Source: Actinomycetota bacterium (GTDB lineage: Bacteria > Actinomycetota > CADDZG01 > WHSQ01). Taken from it: a DNA stretch of 64,000 nucleotides. The stretch covers positions 895,850 to 959,849 of the forward strand of contig JAUJNI010000001.1 of the NCBI GenBank assembly GCA_030446465.1, written 5' to 3'. This document shows, piece by piece, positions 44,859 through 63,962 of the stretch (position 1 is the stretch's first letter; every line of letters begins with the position of its first letter). The position numbers were made by a program, and so were the translations under genes. The notes under the pieces were generated by a model that saw only the letters and a program-made list of their open reading frames with translations, had not been told where the DNA came from and did no database searches.

Positions 44859-44901
44859 AGGAAACCACCTCCTTCGGGGTCTTTCGCCCCGGTCGGACGG
44901 C

Positions 44902-45048
44902 AGCGACGCCTCAGTCTCCTGGCTCCCGGATCAGGGCTTGCTCCGGCCTTCCCGCCCGCGAAGCACGGTGGCACGAGTCGGAGTTGGCTCCCCGGTCACA
45001 GTGGCGAGACCGCGCCGGATTCTCACCGGACTTCCTGGTCACGTCGCT
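44902..45048 (-). ncRNA. Cobalamin riboswitch controlling the cobalamin operon
   Basis: On the minus strand the core GGAAGTCCGGTGAGAATCCG with GCGCGGTC and GCCACTGTGACCGGG is followed by the B12 box AGCCAGGAGACTGAGGCGTC. The P1 stem pairs AGCGACG (45048-45042) with CGTCGCT (44908-44902), which sets the ends. It should shut off cbtB and the following 21 genes when adenosylcobalamin is high. Confidence 0.95.
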
Positions 45049-45061
45049 CTGGTCTCCGCCA

Positions 45062-45090
45062 ATGATGGAAGGCAGTGCAGCCCGGCTCAA
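45062..45090 (-). promoter_or_regulatory. Probable sigma-70 promoter of the cobalamin operon
   Basis: On the minus strand TTGAGC (45090-45085) and CATCAT (45067-45062) are 17 bases apart, each matching 4 of 6 consensus positions. The transcript would start near 45055, just ahead of the riboswitch P1 stem at 45048. Confidence 0.45.
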
Positions 45091-46129: not shown

Positions 46130-46171
46130 CAGCCTGCCCCTATCCGCGAGGAGCCGTGCGGCGCTCAGACC

Positions 46172-46333
46172 GTCTCGGGCAGGTCTCCTGACTCCTGGGT
46201 CACAGCCTCCCCGCAGCCTTCCCATCCCGATCGGGACAGTGGCCTCGTTGCGGGGTGCTCGCCAGTCACAGTGGCGGGTCCGCGCCGGCATCTCACCGGA
46301 CTTCCCTATCAAGCCCATACGGGCACCCGAGAC
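46172..46333 (-). ncRNA. Cobalamin riboswitch upstream of the unknown gene
   Basis: On the minus strand GGAAGTCCGGTGAGATGCCG, GCGCGGACC and CGCCACTGTGACTGG are followed by the B12 box AGTCAGGAGACCTGCCCGAG. P1 pairs CCCGAGAC with GTCTCGGG at the two ends. It is distinct in sequence from the riboswitch at 44902-45048. Confidence 0.95.
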
Positions 46334-46368
46334 AGCTATTCGGTTGTGGCTGCCTTCTCTATCACACA

Positions 46369-56153: not shown

Positions 56154-56182
56154 TTGACGCCGCCTTAACGACAATCTAGTAT
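56154..56182 (+). promoter_or_regulatory. Sigma-70 promoter of the DUF6504-dnaE2 locus
   Basis: TTGACG (56154-56159) and TAGTAT (56177-56182) are separated by exactly 17 bases. The transcript would start near 56189, inside the LexA box that follows, an ideal position for repression. Confidence 0.7.
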
Positions 56183-56198
56183 TCGAACATACGTTCGA
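56183..56198. promoter_or_regulatory. LexA (SOS) box
   Basis: TCGAACATACGTTCGA is a perfect match to the actinobacterial SOS box TCGAAC-N4-GTTCGA. It begins at the base after the -10 element, so LexA should block the promoter until DNA damage. Confidence 0.85.
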
Positions 56199-56290
56199 TT
56201 CTGGTGGCGACCACCTCCCCGGTAGCCGCTGCGGTTCCCCGGCCGCTCGACCCCAGAGCCGAACGAGGGGTTTAGTTACCCCGCAGTAAC

Positions 56291-56333
56291 GGGGGCCCGG
56301 GGGTCCGCTTGCGAGCGGACCGGTCGGGCCCCC
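56291..56333 (+). other. Long GC-rich hairpin in the SOS-controlled leader
   Basis: Outer stem GGGGGCCCG/CGGGCCCCC and inner stem GGTCCGCT-TGCG-AGCGGACC are both perfect. It lies in the 5' leader between the SOS box and the DUF6504 gene. It lacks a T tract, so it could be an attenuator, RNA-stability element or translational block. Confidence 0.5.
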
Positions 56334-56346
56334 TTGCATCTGGGCG

Positions 56347-56733
56347 TTGCATTGGCACATCGAGCTCGAGTGGTGGGCGTGGGTGACGAAGAGGTACGAC
56401 GAGCCGATCGAGGTAACTCCGGACCCCCTCGAGGCAGACGCGCCCATCGCTTTTTCGTGGAGGGGACGCCGCTTCCACATCGACCAGCGCCTGGCGTCGT
56501 GGCGCGAGGCGGGGCAATGGTGGGAGGGCAACGGCTCGGCGGAGCCGAGGAATGGCTCGGCCCGCAGCGGGCTCATGGAGCGCGAGTTCTTCCGGGTGTT
56601 CGCCCGTCCCTCCGGAGCTCTGGCGAGCGGCGACGTCGATGCCGACGGCTTCATGATCTCGGTCGGTGCGGTCTACGACGTCTACCGGGACCGTGCCCGC
56701 GGCGGCTGGAGGCTCGCCCGCATATGGGACTAA
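56347..56733 (+). CDS. DUF6504 family protein
   Basis: A 128-residue protein of the DUF6504 type found next to dnaE2 in actinobacteria. KRYDEPIEVTPDPLEADAPI and FSWRGRRFHIDQRLASW are the recognisable N-terminal block, then FFRVFARPSG and VYDVYRDRARGGWRLARIWD. Its place in translesion synthesis is not known. The TTG at 56347 is the earliest start; a GTG at 56383 lies right where homology begins and may be the true one. It precedes dnaE2 under one SOS promoter. Confidence 0.75.
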   Translation: MHWHIELEWWAWVTKRYDEPIEVTPDPLEADAPIAFSWRGRRFHIDQRLASWREAGQWWEGNGSAEPRNGSARSGLMEREFFRVFARPSGALASGDVDADGFMISVGAVYDVYRDRARGGWRLARIWD

Positions 56734-56772
56734 CTCTTGTGGGAAGAGGCGCTTCCAGTAGGCGAGCCAAAA

Positions 56773-56829
56773 AGCGAGGAGGGCGGCACTCCCTACAAAC
56801 TGCCTGTTCGTCGAGCGAGGAGGGCGGCA
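56773..56829 (+). repeat. 16-bp direct repeat
   Basis: AGCGAGGAGGGCGGCA occurs at 56773-56788 and again at 56814-56829, in the gap between DUF6504 and dnaE2. Its meaning is unknown. Confidence 0.6.
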
Positions 56830-56907
56830 TCCCGAAGCGAAGGCTGAAAAACGGGGTGCCTGAGCGGAGCGGGTGCGCCCCCGCAGCGACAGTCGCCGGC
56901 TGGGCCG

Positions 56908-59900
56908 ATGAGCGGGTTCGTCCATCTCCACTGTCATTCGACGTGGTCGCTGCTCGACGGCGCCCTAACTGCGGAGCACCTCCCGCACCACGCCGCGGCG
57001 GCAGGGTTTCATGCGGTAGCGCTGACCGATCACGACTCTCTGCTCGGCGCGGTCAGGTTCACCAAGGCATGCAAGGACGCAGGGATCAAGCCGGTCTACG
57101 GGGCCGAGCTGACCCTCGAGGACGGCTCCCACGTCACTGTGATCGCCACGAACCGCACGGGTTACGGCAACCTCTGCAGGTTGATCTCCGACGCTCACCT
57201 CACCAACGAGAGGGGCAAGCCGCACACCACGTTTGACAAGATCGCAGAACGCTCCGAGGGCCTGTTCGTGCTTTCGGGTTGCCGCGGCGGGCAGGTCGCG
57301 CGGCTCGCGGGGCAGGGGCGATCCCAACGGCGATTGAGACCGCTAAGCAGTGGCGAGCTGCGATCGGGGACGGCTATCGCATCGAGGTCTTCGATCACCG
57401 CGGCTACGGCGACAAGACGCTCAGGGATCGCCTTCTCTACGTCGCCAAAGATGCGGGAGTTCCTGCGGTCGTTACCAACGACGTCCACTACGCCACTCCC
57501 AGAGGCGCCGCGACCCACGAGCTGCTGCATGCGATCAAGGACATCGTTGCGCTGTCGCGCACGCAGTCGCTCAGATCGACCTCCGAGTACTTCCTCAAAG
57601 ACTCAAACGAGATGTGCGATCTGTTCTGGGACGCTCCCGAGGCGGTCGACGAGACCCTTCGCATCACCGACGCCTGTGACTTCGAGGTCGACCTCGATGC
57701 CCCCCACTTCCCCAAGGTCGCCATCCCTGCGGGAACCACCCACACCGGGTGGCTGGCGCGGCGTTGCTACGAGGGAGCCCGCCGCCGCTATCCCTCGATC
57801 ACCCGAGCGGTCGAGGACCGCCTCCAGCACGAGCTCGGCCTCATCTTCCGCATGGGCTTCGCCTCCTACTTCCTGCTGGTCGCCGACATCGTCGATCACA
57901 TCCGCAAGCTCGGCATTCGCTGTGCCTGCAGGGGGAGCGCGGCCGGCTCGCTCGTGTGCTACGTGCTCGGGATCTCAGACGTCGACCCGGTCCGCTACGA
58001 CCTGTTGTTCGAGCGCTTCATGAACGAGAGACGAGAGGAGTTCCCCGACGTCGACGTCGACGTCGAGTCGCATCGCCGCGAGGAGGTCCTCGCCTACATC
58101 CTCGACACCTACGGCAAGGAGCAGACCGCGATCTGCTGCATGGTCGACACCTTCAGGGCCCGCATGGCGATCCGCGAGGTCGGCAAGGCCCTCGGCCTTC
58201 CTGCAGAGGAGATCGACCTCGTCGCCAAGGCCTTTCCCCGGGTCCAGGCCTCCGACATCCCGAGGGCGATCGAGCACCTGCCGGAGCTTCAGGGCACGAA
58301 CCTACAGGCCGGCCAGCTCGAGCAGCTCTTCGAGCTGTGCCTCGCGATCGACGGCTTCCCCCGTCACCTCGCGCTTCATCCCTCGGGGGTGATCCTGTCG
58401 TCGGCGGATCTCGCCGACCGGGTGCCGATGCAGGAGTCCTTTCAGGGCTTCGTGATGCTGCAGGCGGACAAGCACGACGTCGAGGATCTCGGGCTCGTGA
58501 AGCTCGACGTCTTGGGCGTGCGGATGCTGAGCTCGATCGCCCATGCCCGTGACGAGATCGAGCGTGTTCACGGCCGGTCCGTAGATCTCGACGACTTGCC
58601 GCGCGACGACGCCGACACCTTCCGCTTGATCGCCTCGTCGAGGACCATCGGGTGCTTCCAGATCGAATCGCCGGGCCAGCGGGAGCTGCTGGCCCGCTTT
58701 CAGCCCAATCGCTTCGAGGACCTGATCGTCGACATCTCGTTGTTCCGGCCCGGCCCCGTCAAGTCCGACATGGTGAGCCCCTACCTCGAGCGCCGTCACG
58801 GCTTCGAGGACGCCGTCTACCCTCATCCCTCGCTGAGATCCATCCTCAGAGAGACCCACGGCGTCATCGTCTTCCACGAGCAGCTCATCCGGGCGATCGC
58901 CTCGGTCACGGGGTGCTCGCTCGCCGACGCCGACTACATCAGGCGTCACCTCGACAGTGAGCGCCCGAGCCTGCCCGACGACCCCGACTCGCGGCCTGCA
59001 CGCAGGGGCCTCGATGGTCCGCGCAGCGGCGTCGGCGCGGACAACGAAGTGGGGGCCTGGTTCGTCGCCCGGGCGGTCGACAACGGCTATTCGAGGCTCC
59101 AGGCCGAGACGCTGTGGAAGGAGGTGTTCGCGTTCGCCTCCTTCGGGTTCTGCAAGTCACATGCCGCCGCCTTTGCGCTCCCGACCTACGTCTCGGCCTG
59201 GCTCAAGGCGCACTACCCGGCCGAGTTCCTCGCGGGAGTGCTGACCCACGACCCCGGCATGTACCCCCGCCGGCTGATCGTGTCCGACGCCCGCCACTTC
59301 GGGATCGCGATTCTGCCGATCGACGTCAATCACTCGGACGCCCTCTACCGGGTCCAACCCGTTCTTTTCCCCCACAGCGGCGACTATCGCCGTCAGAGGG
59401 GCCAAGAACGGTGGGGGATAAGGCTGGCGCTGTCCGAGGTCAAGGGCATCTCGGACGCCGAGGTCGATTCGATCATCGAGGCCCGCAACGAGTGTCCCTT
59501 CAGCTCGCTCGAGGACCTGTGGCGCAGGACCGAGCTGTCGCAGCCTGTGCTCACCAACCTCGTGCACGTCGGGGCCCTCGACTCTGTCGAGTCCACGCGC
59601 ACGAGACGAGAGCTGCTGTGGCGCGCTACCGAGCTTGCCACCGAGCCGAAGCCGGCCGTGGGCCATCAACTGGGGCTGGCGCTCGACGAATCGGCAGTGC
59701 CCTCGCTCGGCGACCTTGCCGACTACAGCTCTCTCGAGCAAGTCCAGGCCGAGCTCGAAGTTGCGGGGATCGATGCCCGCAAGCACATGATGGAGCTCTA
59801 TCAGCCGCTGCTCGTCGAGCTCGGCGTCACATCGGGGGCCGAGCTGAGGCACAAGCGAAACGACTCACAGGTGTGGGTTGCGGGAATCAAGGTCTCGACG

Positions 59901-60293
59901 CAGACTCCGGCGATCCGCTCGGGCCAGCGCATCATCTTTCTGACCCTCGACGACACGAGCGGCCCGATCGACGTCACCGTGTTCCAACGGGTCCAGCCCC
60001 GCTGTGCCAGGACCGTCTTTCACTCCTGGCTGCTGCTGGTCAAGGGCATCGTGCGCAAACGGGGTGGGGCGTCGCTGACCCACGACATGGACTCGGACAA
60101 CGTCGGCATCACCGTCGTCGCCCACGAGGTCTTCGACCTTGCCGAACTCGCGTCTGACCGCGCGGCGGGTCACTCGAGGGCCGCGGCCCTCGGCCGCCAG
60201 AGAAGACTTCAGGCAGTAGCCGGTCTCGCCCCCGGCGGGGAACTCGCGGCGCCAAAGCTGTGGCACTCGAGCGGAGGCTCCGCGGGCCGCTAA
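56908..60293 (+). CDS. dnaE2: DNA polymerase III alpha subunit, error-prone DnaE2 type (single-base frameshift)
   Basis: About 1130 residues when repaired. The PHP domain starts FVHLHCHSTWSLLDGALTAE and LTDHDSLLGAVRF. The frame breaks after GCRGGQVARLA; one G restored near 57309-57320 joins it to AIPTAIETAKQWRAAIGDGY. The polymerase core has CRGSAAGSLVCYVLGI, PDVDVDVESHRREEV with the catalytic aspartates, and CFQIESPGQRELLARFQ. An OB-fold near the end (WVAGIKVSTQTPAIRSGQ) is intact. An SOS box upstream supports the mutagenic DnaE2 role with ImuB, which is not in the window. The rest of the gene is open, so a sequencing deletion is likely. Confidence 0.88.
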
Positions 60294-61971: not shown

Positions 61972-62739
61972 CTAGCGGGTGTTCTCGGATCCCATCACCT
62001 CCTTGTGCTTGCCCTTCAGCCGATAGCTGTCGCCCTTGAGCAGGATGACCTCGGCGTGGTGGACGAGCCGGTCGACCATCGCTGCGACGGCGACGGCATC
62101 GCCGAAGATCTCCGGCCACGCGGAGAAGGTCTTGTTGGACGAGACGATGAGCGACGAGCGCTCGTAGCGGGAGCTGACCAGAGCGAAGAACAACGCTGCC
62201 GCCTCGGGATCGAAGGGGATGTAGCCGACCTCGTCGCAGATCACCAAAGGCGTGCGCCCAAGTCGTTCGAGCTCGCCGTCAAGACGGCCCGCTCGCTTGG
62301 CCTCACCGAGGCGCAACACCCATTCATGGGCGGTTGCGAACGCGACCCGGTGACCGCGACGGGCGGCCTGGACCCCGAGTGCGATCGCGAGGTGGGTCTT
62401 GCCCGTCCCCGGTGGGCCCAAGAAAACGACGTTCTTGGCCTCGGCCAAGAAGTCGAGCTGGGCGAGATGAGCGATCTGCTGGCGCTTGATCGAGCGCTGG
62501 AAGGTGAAATCGAAGTCGTCGAGGGTCTTGACCTGAGGAAAGCGGGCGCGCTTGACGCGAGCCTGGCCACCATGCGTTTCACGCGAGCTGACCTCCTCAG
62601 ACAGCACCGCGGCGAGATAGGCCTCGTAGTCCCACGATTCGTCACGCGCCCGTTCGGCCAGCACCCGGGCCGCCTCGGGGACGCGCGGCGCCTTGAGGGC
62701 GCGCGATAGGTAGGCGACCTCGGATGCGACCGTGCTCAC
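61972..62739 (-). CDS. istB: IS21-family helper ATPase IstB
   Basis: A 255-residue DnaC-like AAA+ protein. Walker A is VVFLGPPGTGKTHLAIALGV near residue 105 and Walker B VICDEVGYIPFDPEA near 165; IVSSNKTFSAWPEIFGDAV and AMVDRLVHHAEVILLKGDSY are IstB hallmarks. It helps IstA choose the target and activates transposition. Full length; it overlaps istA by 4 bases and its stop lies next to the terminal repeat. Confidence 0.96.
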   Translation of the reverse strand: MSTVASEVAYLSRALKAPRVPEAARVLAERARDESWDYEAYLAAVLSEEVSSRETHGGQARVKRARFPQVKTLDDFDFTFQRSIKRQQIAHLAQLDFLAEAKNVVFLGPPGTGKTHLAIALGVQAARRGHRVAFATAHEWVLRLGEAKRAGRLDGELERLGRTPLVICDEVGYIPFDPEAAALFFALVSSRYERSSLIVSSNKTFSAWPEIFGDAVAVAAMVDRLVHHAEVILLKGDSYRLKGKHKEVMGSENTR

Positions 62740-63962
62740 GTCAACGCCCCGATGAGCTCGTCATAGCGCGACAGGTCGGGGGCCTCGAGCTCAACGTCAC
62801 CTGACGCCAGGTGGTTGGTGGCCTCCCGCGACAGCCTCAGGGCACGAGCATGTGTCGGATCGAGCACGACGTCGGCCGGCACGTAGCTTCGTGAGTGGCG
62901 GGCGATCTCGGAACCTTCAAGGTAGACGACGACTTCATGCAACGAGGTGCGGACCGCCAGGCGCCGTCCGCTGAGTCCCGGCGGGATCGAGTAGTCGGCG
63001 CCCGAGACCCGGATGAACAGGTCCTTGGTCGCCCTTGTCTCGAAGCGGAAGTCGGTGTCGGGTCGAGGGTCAGGTAGCGGGTGCAGGTAGCCGCGCTCGA
63101 CGTTGTAGGCGTCGGCCACCCGTGCTCCGACGCGGCGGTGATGGCGGGGATGGGCCTTGTCGCGCGCCCATGTGTCGTGCTGGTCCTGGAGGTCCTCGAT
63201 GCACTCGAAGCTCCGCAGCGGCAGGAAGCTGCGCTCCAGGTAGCCGACGGTGCGCTCGACCTGGCCCTTGGATTCCGGGCGCTCCTTCTCCAAGATGATC
63301 GGCTTGAGAGCGAGCTGCCCGAACAGCGCGGCGACCTCGTCGTGCAGCACCGCGTTCTTGCCCGATCCAGTCGCGATGATCGACGAGTCGTTGTCGAACA
63401 CGCCGGCTGTGGGCACACCGCCGAAGCGCTCGAGCGTTCCCATGAACGCGGGGCAGAAGTCGCCCATTGTCTTGGTGAACGTGAACACCGTTTCGTGCGC
63501 GGCCGAATGCGGCAGCGTCGCCACCAGCCCGTGCGGCCTGCGGAAGCGCTCCTTGCCCACCGGGATCTGGATCGGCAGGTCCCACCAGTCGAACTGGCCG
63601 ATCTCGCCGGGGATGTAGCTGGTGCGCTGGAAGCTGCGCCGGGCCAGATAGCGAGGGCGCTCTTGCTTCAGGTAGTCCTTGAGGATCGTGATGCGACCCT
63701 CGTAGCCGCGCGCATGGAGGTGCTCGAGGATCACCGTCGCCGGCGCCTCGGCATCGGTGTCGAGCATCTCGGCGATGTCTCGCTTGAACGGATCCAGCAG
63801 CGAGCCCTTGACGCGGCGCTCGTAGCACGGTGGCTCTTGAAGCCTCAGGAGGCGGTCGACGGTGTTGCGCGACATCGAGAACCTTCTGGCTATAGCGGTC
63901 TTCGACCACCCCTCCCGGTGGTGGAGCCGGTGGACCTCGGCCCAGTCATGCACTGAGTACAC
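62736..63962 (-). CDS. istA: IS21-family transposase IstA
   Basis: A 408-residue DDE transposase. The N-terminal helix-turn-helix (REGWSKTAIARRFSMSRNTV) binds the ends. The catalytic residues are in GQFDWWDLPI near residue 123, VFDNDSSIIA near 188 and ESKGQVERTVGYLER near 230. The C-terminal barrel is complete. GAGGAAGG lies before the ATG at 63960-63962. The element looks intact and possibly active. Confidence 0.96.
   Translation of the reverse strand: MYSVHDWAEVHRLHHREGWSKTAIARRFSMSRNTVDRLLRLQEPPCYERRVKGSLLDPFKRDIAEMLDTDAEAPATVILEHLHARGYEGRITILKDYLKQERPRYLARRSFQRTSYIPGEIGQFDWWDLPIQIPVGKERFRRPHGLVATLPHSAAHETVFTFTKTMGDFCPAFMGTLERFGGVPTAGVFDNDSSIIATGSGKNAVLHDEVAALFGQLALKPIILEKERPESKGQVERTVGYLERSFLPLRSFECIEDLQDQHDTWARDKAHPRHHRRVGARVADAYNVERGYLHPLPDPRPDTDFRFETRATKDLFIRVSGADYSIPPGLSGRRLAVRTSLHEVVVYLEGSEIARHSRSYVPADVVLDPTHARALRLSREATNHLASGDVELEAPDLSRYDELIGALT

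Follow-up and report, generated by a model that had tools for sequence, protein, structure and literature searches.

How is a DUF6504-dnaE2 operon that lies behind a promoter and a LexA box controlled, and what is DUF6504, standing next to dnaE2 where no imuB is found? Throughout, the window denotes the whole stretch of 64,000 nucleotides that was analysed. The features on which the argument rests are the following.

56154..56182, plus strand: sigma-70-like promoter, TTGACG-17 nt-TAGTAT (from the sequence; TTGAC at a similar distance in relatives)
56183..56198, plus strand: LexA box TCGAACATACGTTCGA, enclosing the predicted transcription start
56191..56340, plus strand: conserved leader RNA, model R1 (family conservation; no Rfam match)
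56192..56203, plus strand: 5′ strand of stem P1, overlapping the right half of the LexA box (alignment, folding)
56231..56246, plus strand: P3 hairpin with conserved UUCCCCGG apex (alignment, folding)
56254..56265, plus strand: 3′ strand of stem P1 (alignment, folding)
56291..56333, plus strand: terminator-like hairpin with a weakly T-rich tail at 56334-56343 (alignment, folding; not called by a simple terminator scan)
56383..56733, plus strand: DUF6504, a standalone ImuB-C by domain match, 116 aa (PF20114 match; start taken from relatives; upstream in-frame TTG at 56347)
56908..57330 (end approximate), plus strand: dnaE2, PHP-domain part, frame 1
57279..60293, plus strand: dnaE2, remainder, frame 3

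Exactly as the initial annotation had claimed, the promoter has a 17-nt spacer and leads directly into a perfect LexA box (56154-56198). TTGACG (56154-56159) and TAGTAT (56177-56182) form a sigma-70-like promoter which directly abuts the box, and a TTGAC is similarly spaced in the 13 loci of the window's family whose contig extends that far; a predicted LexA box of actinobacterial type sits on the operon promoter. The box had also been placed at the start site, which holds for the predicted transcription start and not for the gene: since relatives place the start of DUF6504 at GTG 56383, the box lies 200 nt before the start codon, with about 185 nt from box to gene. TCGAACATACGTTCGA at 56183-56198 is the sole perfect LexA box within the 64-kb window, in which sites with two mismatches or fewer number 14, compared with 4.22 expected in shuffles. 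Seven perfect boxes were found genome-wide, against one match to the pattern read backwards as a control. The genes at these boxes, whose ORFs were read and named by eye, are mostly of typical SOS type: a UvrD-like helicase, ruvC-ruvA, three DUF222/HNH-type genes and the DUF6504-dnaE2 operon, the remaining box lying inside a protease ORF, probably by chance. Moreover, three near-boxes are present upstream of lexA. Perfect boxes at L005 2987, L008 3024 and L009 2987 overlap or abut the start codons of the UvrD-like helicase, an HNH-type gene and ruvC, suggesting leaderless SOS transcripts, and near-identical DUF222/HNH-type genes lie behind perfect boxes at L004 2464-3147 and L006 1616-3079.

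PF20114 (DUF6504) matches were obtained in 76 of 198 phylum genomes. The survey comprised 78 DUF6504 loci, 14 from the window's family, 3 from two other families of its class and 61 from elsewhere in the phylum, two sub-threshold DUF6504 places (G155 and G053) being left out. Within 420 nt upstream of DUF6504, a LexA core was found, one mismatch being allowed, in 13/14, 3/3 and 46/61 loci, respectively, compared with 0/11, 0/3 and 9/59 shifted control windows, and perfect 10-base cores were found in 13/14, 1/3 and 42/61 (56/78 in total), compared with 0/73 controls. In the same survey, a dnaE2 match came after DUF6504 on the same strand in 13 of the 14 family loci, all 3 same-class loci and 31 of the 61 others; several loci without dnaE2 carry a Y-family polymerase match instead. 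SOS control of DUF6504-dnaE2 is strongly supported by this conservation.

Regarding DUF6504, the suggestion of a missing accessory in place of ImuB was half right, as the protein does stand where ImuB does not, yet it is not an unknown one. It matches PF20114 with 57.6 bits (cut-off 24.2), and six ImuB proteins were tested with the same model: two exceeded the cut-off at the C-terminus (L116, L113), two matched below it at the same C-terminal place (L070, L112), and no match was found in a Rhodanobacter and a Burkholderia ImuB (L071, L115). The PF20114-bearing ImuB proteins, two over the cut-off and two below, come from Agrobacterium, Rhizobium, Novosphingobium and Chelativorans plasmid operons, and the RefSeq name of the Chelativorans ImuB is “DUF6504 family protein”. 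Because the PF20114 domain is found at the C-terminal end of ImuB proteins, DUF6504 is, by domain match, the C-terminal ImuB domain, ImuB-C, encoded here as a free protein; the idea of an unknown accessory was rejected on this ground, with which the RefSeq naming agrees. The predicted structure of the window's protein is all-beta, with six strands and no helix (mean pLDDT 76.2, from a 13-sequence alignment), and no PDB fold match to the model was found at E 0.001. The reported absence of imuB at the locus extends to the whole window genome (95.7% complete), in which no ImuB was found and the sole Y-family match is an active-looking PolY. A PF00154 search of this genome returned RecA and one weak match, the ImuA control itself being without any Pfam match. 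In the relevant parts of the published work, ImuB-C was named in 2013 (PMC3765255) and treated as a free-standing module in 2019 (PMC6511836), and the association of DnaE2 with free ImuB-C in Actinobacteria was reported in 2013, 2019 and 2026 (PMC3765255, PMC6511836, PMC12926913). No report under the name DUF6504 was found in the open-licence literature.

A Y-family polymerase is present in 15 of the 16 window-family genomes. PolY was read at 19 loci, six of which gave no ORF by the pattern used; 11 orthologues, read fully or partly, are 64-75% identical to the copy of the window genome and keep SLDEAF, and one divergent paralogue is 43% identical and carries a SIDE motif. The window-genome PolY has SLDEAF intact and a C-terminal motif common to the orthologues, and its simple alignment with the RecA N-terminus was not significant (1547/2000 shuffles). 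In 7/8 relatives PolY starts 88-1174 nt past dnaE2 on the same strand, and it lies 8.1 kb away in one, whereas 13.4 kb separate it from the operon in the window genome, with istA/istB-like, transposase-like and RHS-like ORFs (named by eye) in that interval. Given this adjacency in the relatives, the window's two-gene operon is probably what remains of a neighbourhood of three genes that has been broken up. The istA/istB-like pair and the transposase-like ORF that separate dnaE2 from the polymerase gene lie at window positions 61972-63962 and L150 4898-5467.

It should be mentioned that the window dnaE2 is split over two reading frames, with the switch at 57279-57330, while the PHP part and the rest are in one frame in 11/11 relatives with longer flanks (L038-L048, which are window-family genomes already in the sample and add no new species). 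In the same assembly, the HNH gene copy L004 looks frame-broken compared with its near-identical twin L006, and this second broken gene makes a sequencing indel in dnaE2 plausible. The frame break is therefore either such an indel, which is plausible but unproven, or a recent lesion.

Neither this frame break nor the conserved RNA between the LexA box and DUF6504 had been noticed in the initial annotation. Alignment of the family leaders revealed conservation extending well beyond the box. The 5′ strand of the closing stem P1 of R1 is the LexA half-site, and its 3′ strand is found roughly 45-100 nt downstream across leaders. Inside P1 lie a hairpin whose UCCCCGG apex is nearly invariant and, usually, a second one. 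Behind P1 comes a GC-rich terminator-like hairpin, present in 12/14 family leaders and missing in two (L017, L018); the tail behind this stem has 5.25 T in 10 across leaders, compared with 16.7% T in the window. R1 occurs as one copy each in 11 of the 16 family genomes, just upstream of DUF6504. Among the other three DUF6504-bearing family genomes, R1 was matched at E 7.7e-5 in one and only at 0.45 in another, and the third is cut by a contig end. Within the phylum, 10 of 198 genomes carry R1, all from the window's family, and no match was found in the remaining 188, two of which are family members, nor in 8 other genomes of the class, nor in any of 24 DUF6504 loci from outside the family (cut-off E 0.1). 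These R1 matches are mostly its own seed sequences; a model built from 5 leaders found 7/9 held-out family loci at the right place, with E up to 0.013, its best E in 31 non-family loci being 0.17. In 12 leaders, 83.8% of cells are paired, compared with 30-53% when the alignment is slid, and 29 two-sided changes were counted, compared with 13.6 after shuffling, a number unreached by 500 shuffles or any slid version, both counts resting on a model-fitted alignment. P1 is in the minimum free energy (MFE) fold of 13/13 leader cores, and when the downstream sequence is shuffled, between 0 and 11 of the 200 shuffles for each leader equal its score. The comparison of leaders thus shows R1 to be a conserved covarying RNA in the window's family. 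Rfam 15 gave no match to the leader at the gathering threshold, and a permissive scan gave only chance-level matches; elsewhere in the window, Rfam identifies two cobalamin riboswitches about 1 kb apart on the minus strand (44892-45090 and 46161-46345).

Some results speak against regulation by folding. The MFE fold of the window's full 195-nt leader is without P1, and its stability compared with shuffles is slight (z -1.66, 13/200). Among full leaders, P1 is retained with a probability of 0.75 or more in 9/13 and lost in 4, including the window, which in these models could reflect either a switch between two folds or a weak structure. An antiterminator formed by P3 and the terminator arm was plausible by eye in several leaders, and was rejected as no consistent pairing was found across them. 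Of the features of an intrinsic-terminator attenuator, a GC hairpin is seen in those 12 of 14 leaders and T-rich tails occur in the family, while the terminator scan of the window does not call the hairpin and the antiterminator is inconsistent.

Several other families also have long leaders. In family f44 and one f28 genome (L118-L131, L068), a long hairpin with the loop GGGAAGG lies between the LexA box and DUF6504. The corresponding model, R2, has one copy per genome in 14/21 f44 genomes, with the loop 36-76 nt after the start of the LexA box in 14/14; 8 of the 14 matches are outside the seed, all of them beside a LexA box. The DUF6504 start follows R2 in 11/14 by pattern and in two more (L125, L129) by eye, and L124 has a longer R2 leader. 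Covariation is again seen in a model-fitted alignment, with 92.5% paired compared with 38-44% when slid, and 41 two-sided changes compared with 14.4 shuffled. A perfect CCUUCC complement downstream of the GGGAAGG loop, present in 10/15 leaders, suggests a pseudoknot. R2 has no evident T-run, and no dnaE2 match was found within the flanks covered in the surveyed f44 loci. Another conserved leader hairpin between LexA box and DUF6504 was observed in L074, L080 and L087 (f45), three genomes of one genus, too close for covariation.

Taken together, we lean, by a little, towards a LexA-repressed DnaE2-ImuB-C operon whose conserved leader would be a second, RNA-level gate on the mutasome genes. LexA would sit on the predicted transcription start and repress the DnaE2-ImuB-C error-prone polymerase module, which an active-looking Y-family polymerase adjoins in most relatives. 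DNA damage would remove LexA, and the transcript would then open with the structured leader, P1 with P3 followed by the terminator-like hairpin, and continue into DUF6504. We infer that the leader acts after LexA release, by attenuation or translational control, and that it may hold back readthrough into the mutasome genes, or their translation, until some additional condition applies. Perhaps, as a more tentative generalisation, lineage-specific leader RNAs (P1-P3-terminator and GGGAAGG-loop) gate standalone ImuB-C genes of Actinomycetota after LexA, possibly via autogenous binding of ImuB-C.

A simpler explanation, which we find rather unlikely, is that LexA alone controls the operon, the leader sensing nothing and its stable 5′ fold serving to protect the mRNA or as a spacer. 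In fact, in the other two families of the class (L035, L036, L037) the same operon has a pair of LexA boxes and lacks the R1 RNA, its leader being about 25-45 nt long, and P1 is not the equilibrium fold in 4 of the 13 full leaders. Nonetheless, the P3 apex and the terminator base are conserved in primary sequence beyond pairing needs, and another family has a different conserved leader at this position. Improbable, in our view, is a small RNA induced by the SOS response, whose 3′ end would be the terminator-like hairpin and whose action would lie elsewhere: it would account for the leader having its own promoter, a single copy and a T-rich tail behind the hairpin, yet R1 is upstream of DUF6504 in 11/11 R1 genomes, no second promoter-like site was found in the window between the hairpin and DUF6504, and the second RNA class lacks an evident T-run. 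A DNA element, that is, the binding site of a second regulator with incidental hairpins, is very improbable. Some of the conservation does concern primary sequence, and a protein could recognise inverted repeats, but compensatory changes on both sides occur in P1, in P3 and in the terminator-like stem, and are strong in the second RNA.

Mutagenic polymerases are hazardous enzymes for a cell to make. If the leader is the gate that we favour, a conserved RNA between LexA operator and mutasome genes would be a second checkpoint on such polymerases after SOS induction, and ImuB-C, a domain that is little understood, would gain a possible partner in regulation. Moreover, the same bases would then serve both levels of control, as a LexA half-site in the DNA and as the 5′ strand of a stem in the RNA.

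Among known systems, the closest is the published pairing of DnaE2 with standalone ImuB-C, which the window resembles in lacking ImuB, and whose linked PolY is matched by the 7/8 relatives with an active-looking PolY within 1.2 kb; the window genome differs in having PolY 13.4 kb off with transposon-like genes between. The word LexA is absent from the main text of the paper describing it, whose passages on this system mention no leader RNA either. More broadly, no report of a dnaE2 or SOS leader RNA of this kind was found in the open-licence literature, PMC2864571 being covered by a term search, and the conserved leader RNAs appear undescribed there. The ImuA-ImuB-DnaE2 mutasome of Mycobacterium and Caulobacter shares DnaE2, the ImuB-C domain and SOS control with the window, where no ImuB was found and ImuB-C is a separate protein. 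Attenuator-type leader RNAs, such as riboswitches and protein-binding leaders, have a structured 5′ domain and a terminator-like hairpin at a single cis locus. R1 is like them in all these respects, and unlike them in having no Rfam family, no clear overlap between P1 and the terminator, and a P1 that uses a LexA operator half-site. In E. coli, tisB is a LexA-controlled toxin gene with a structured mRNA leader; the R1 operon likewise would combine LexA with RNA-level control, a likeness in kind, as tisB encodes a toxin and not a polymerase module. LexA-controlled ImuB-C-dnaE2 operons are thus known in kind, while the structured leader of roughly 185 nt seems new.
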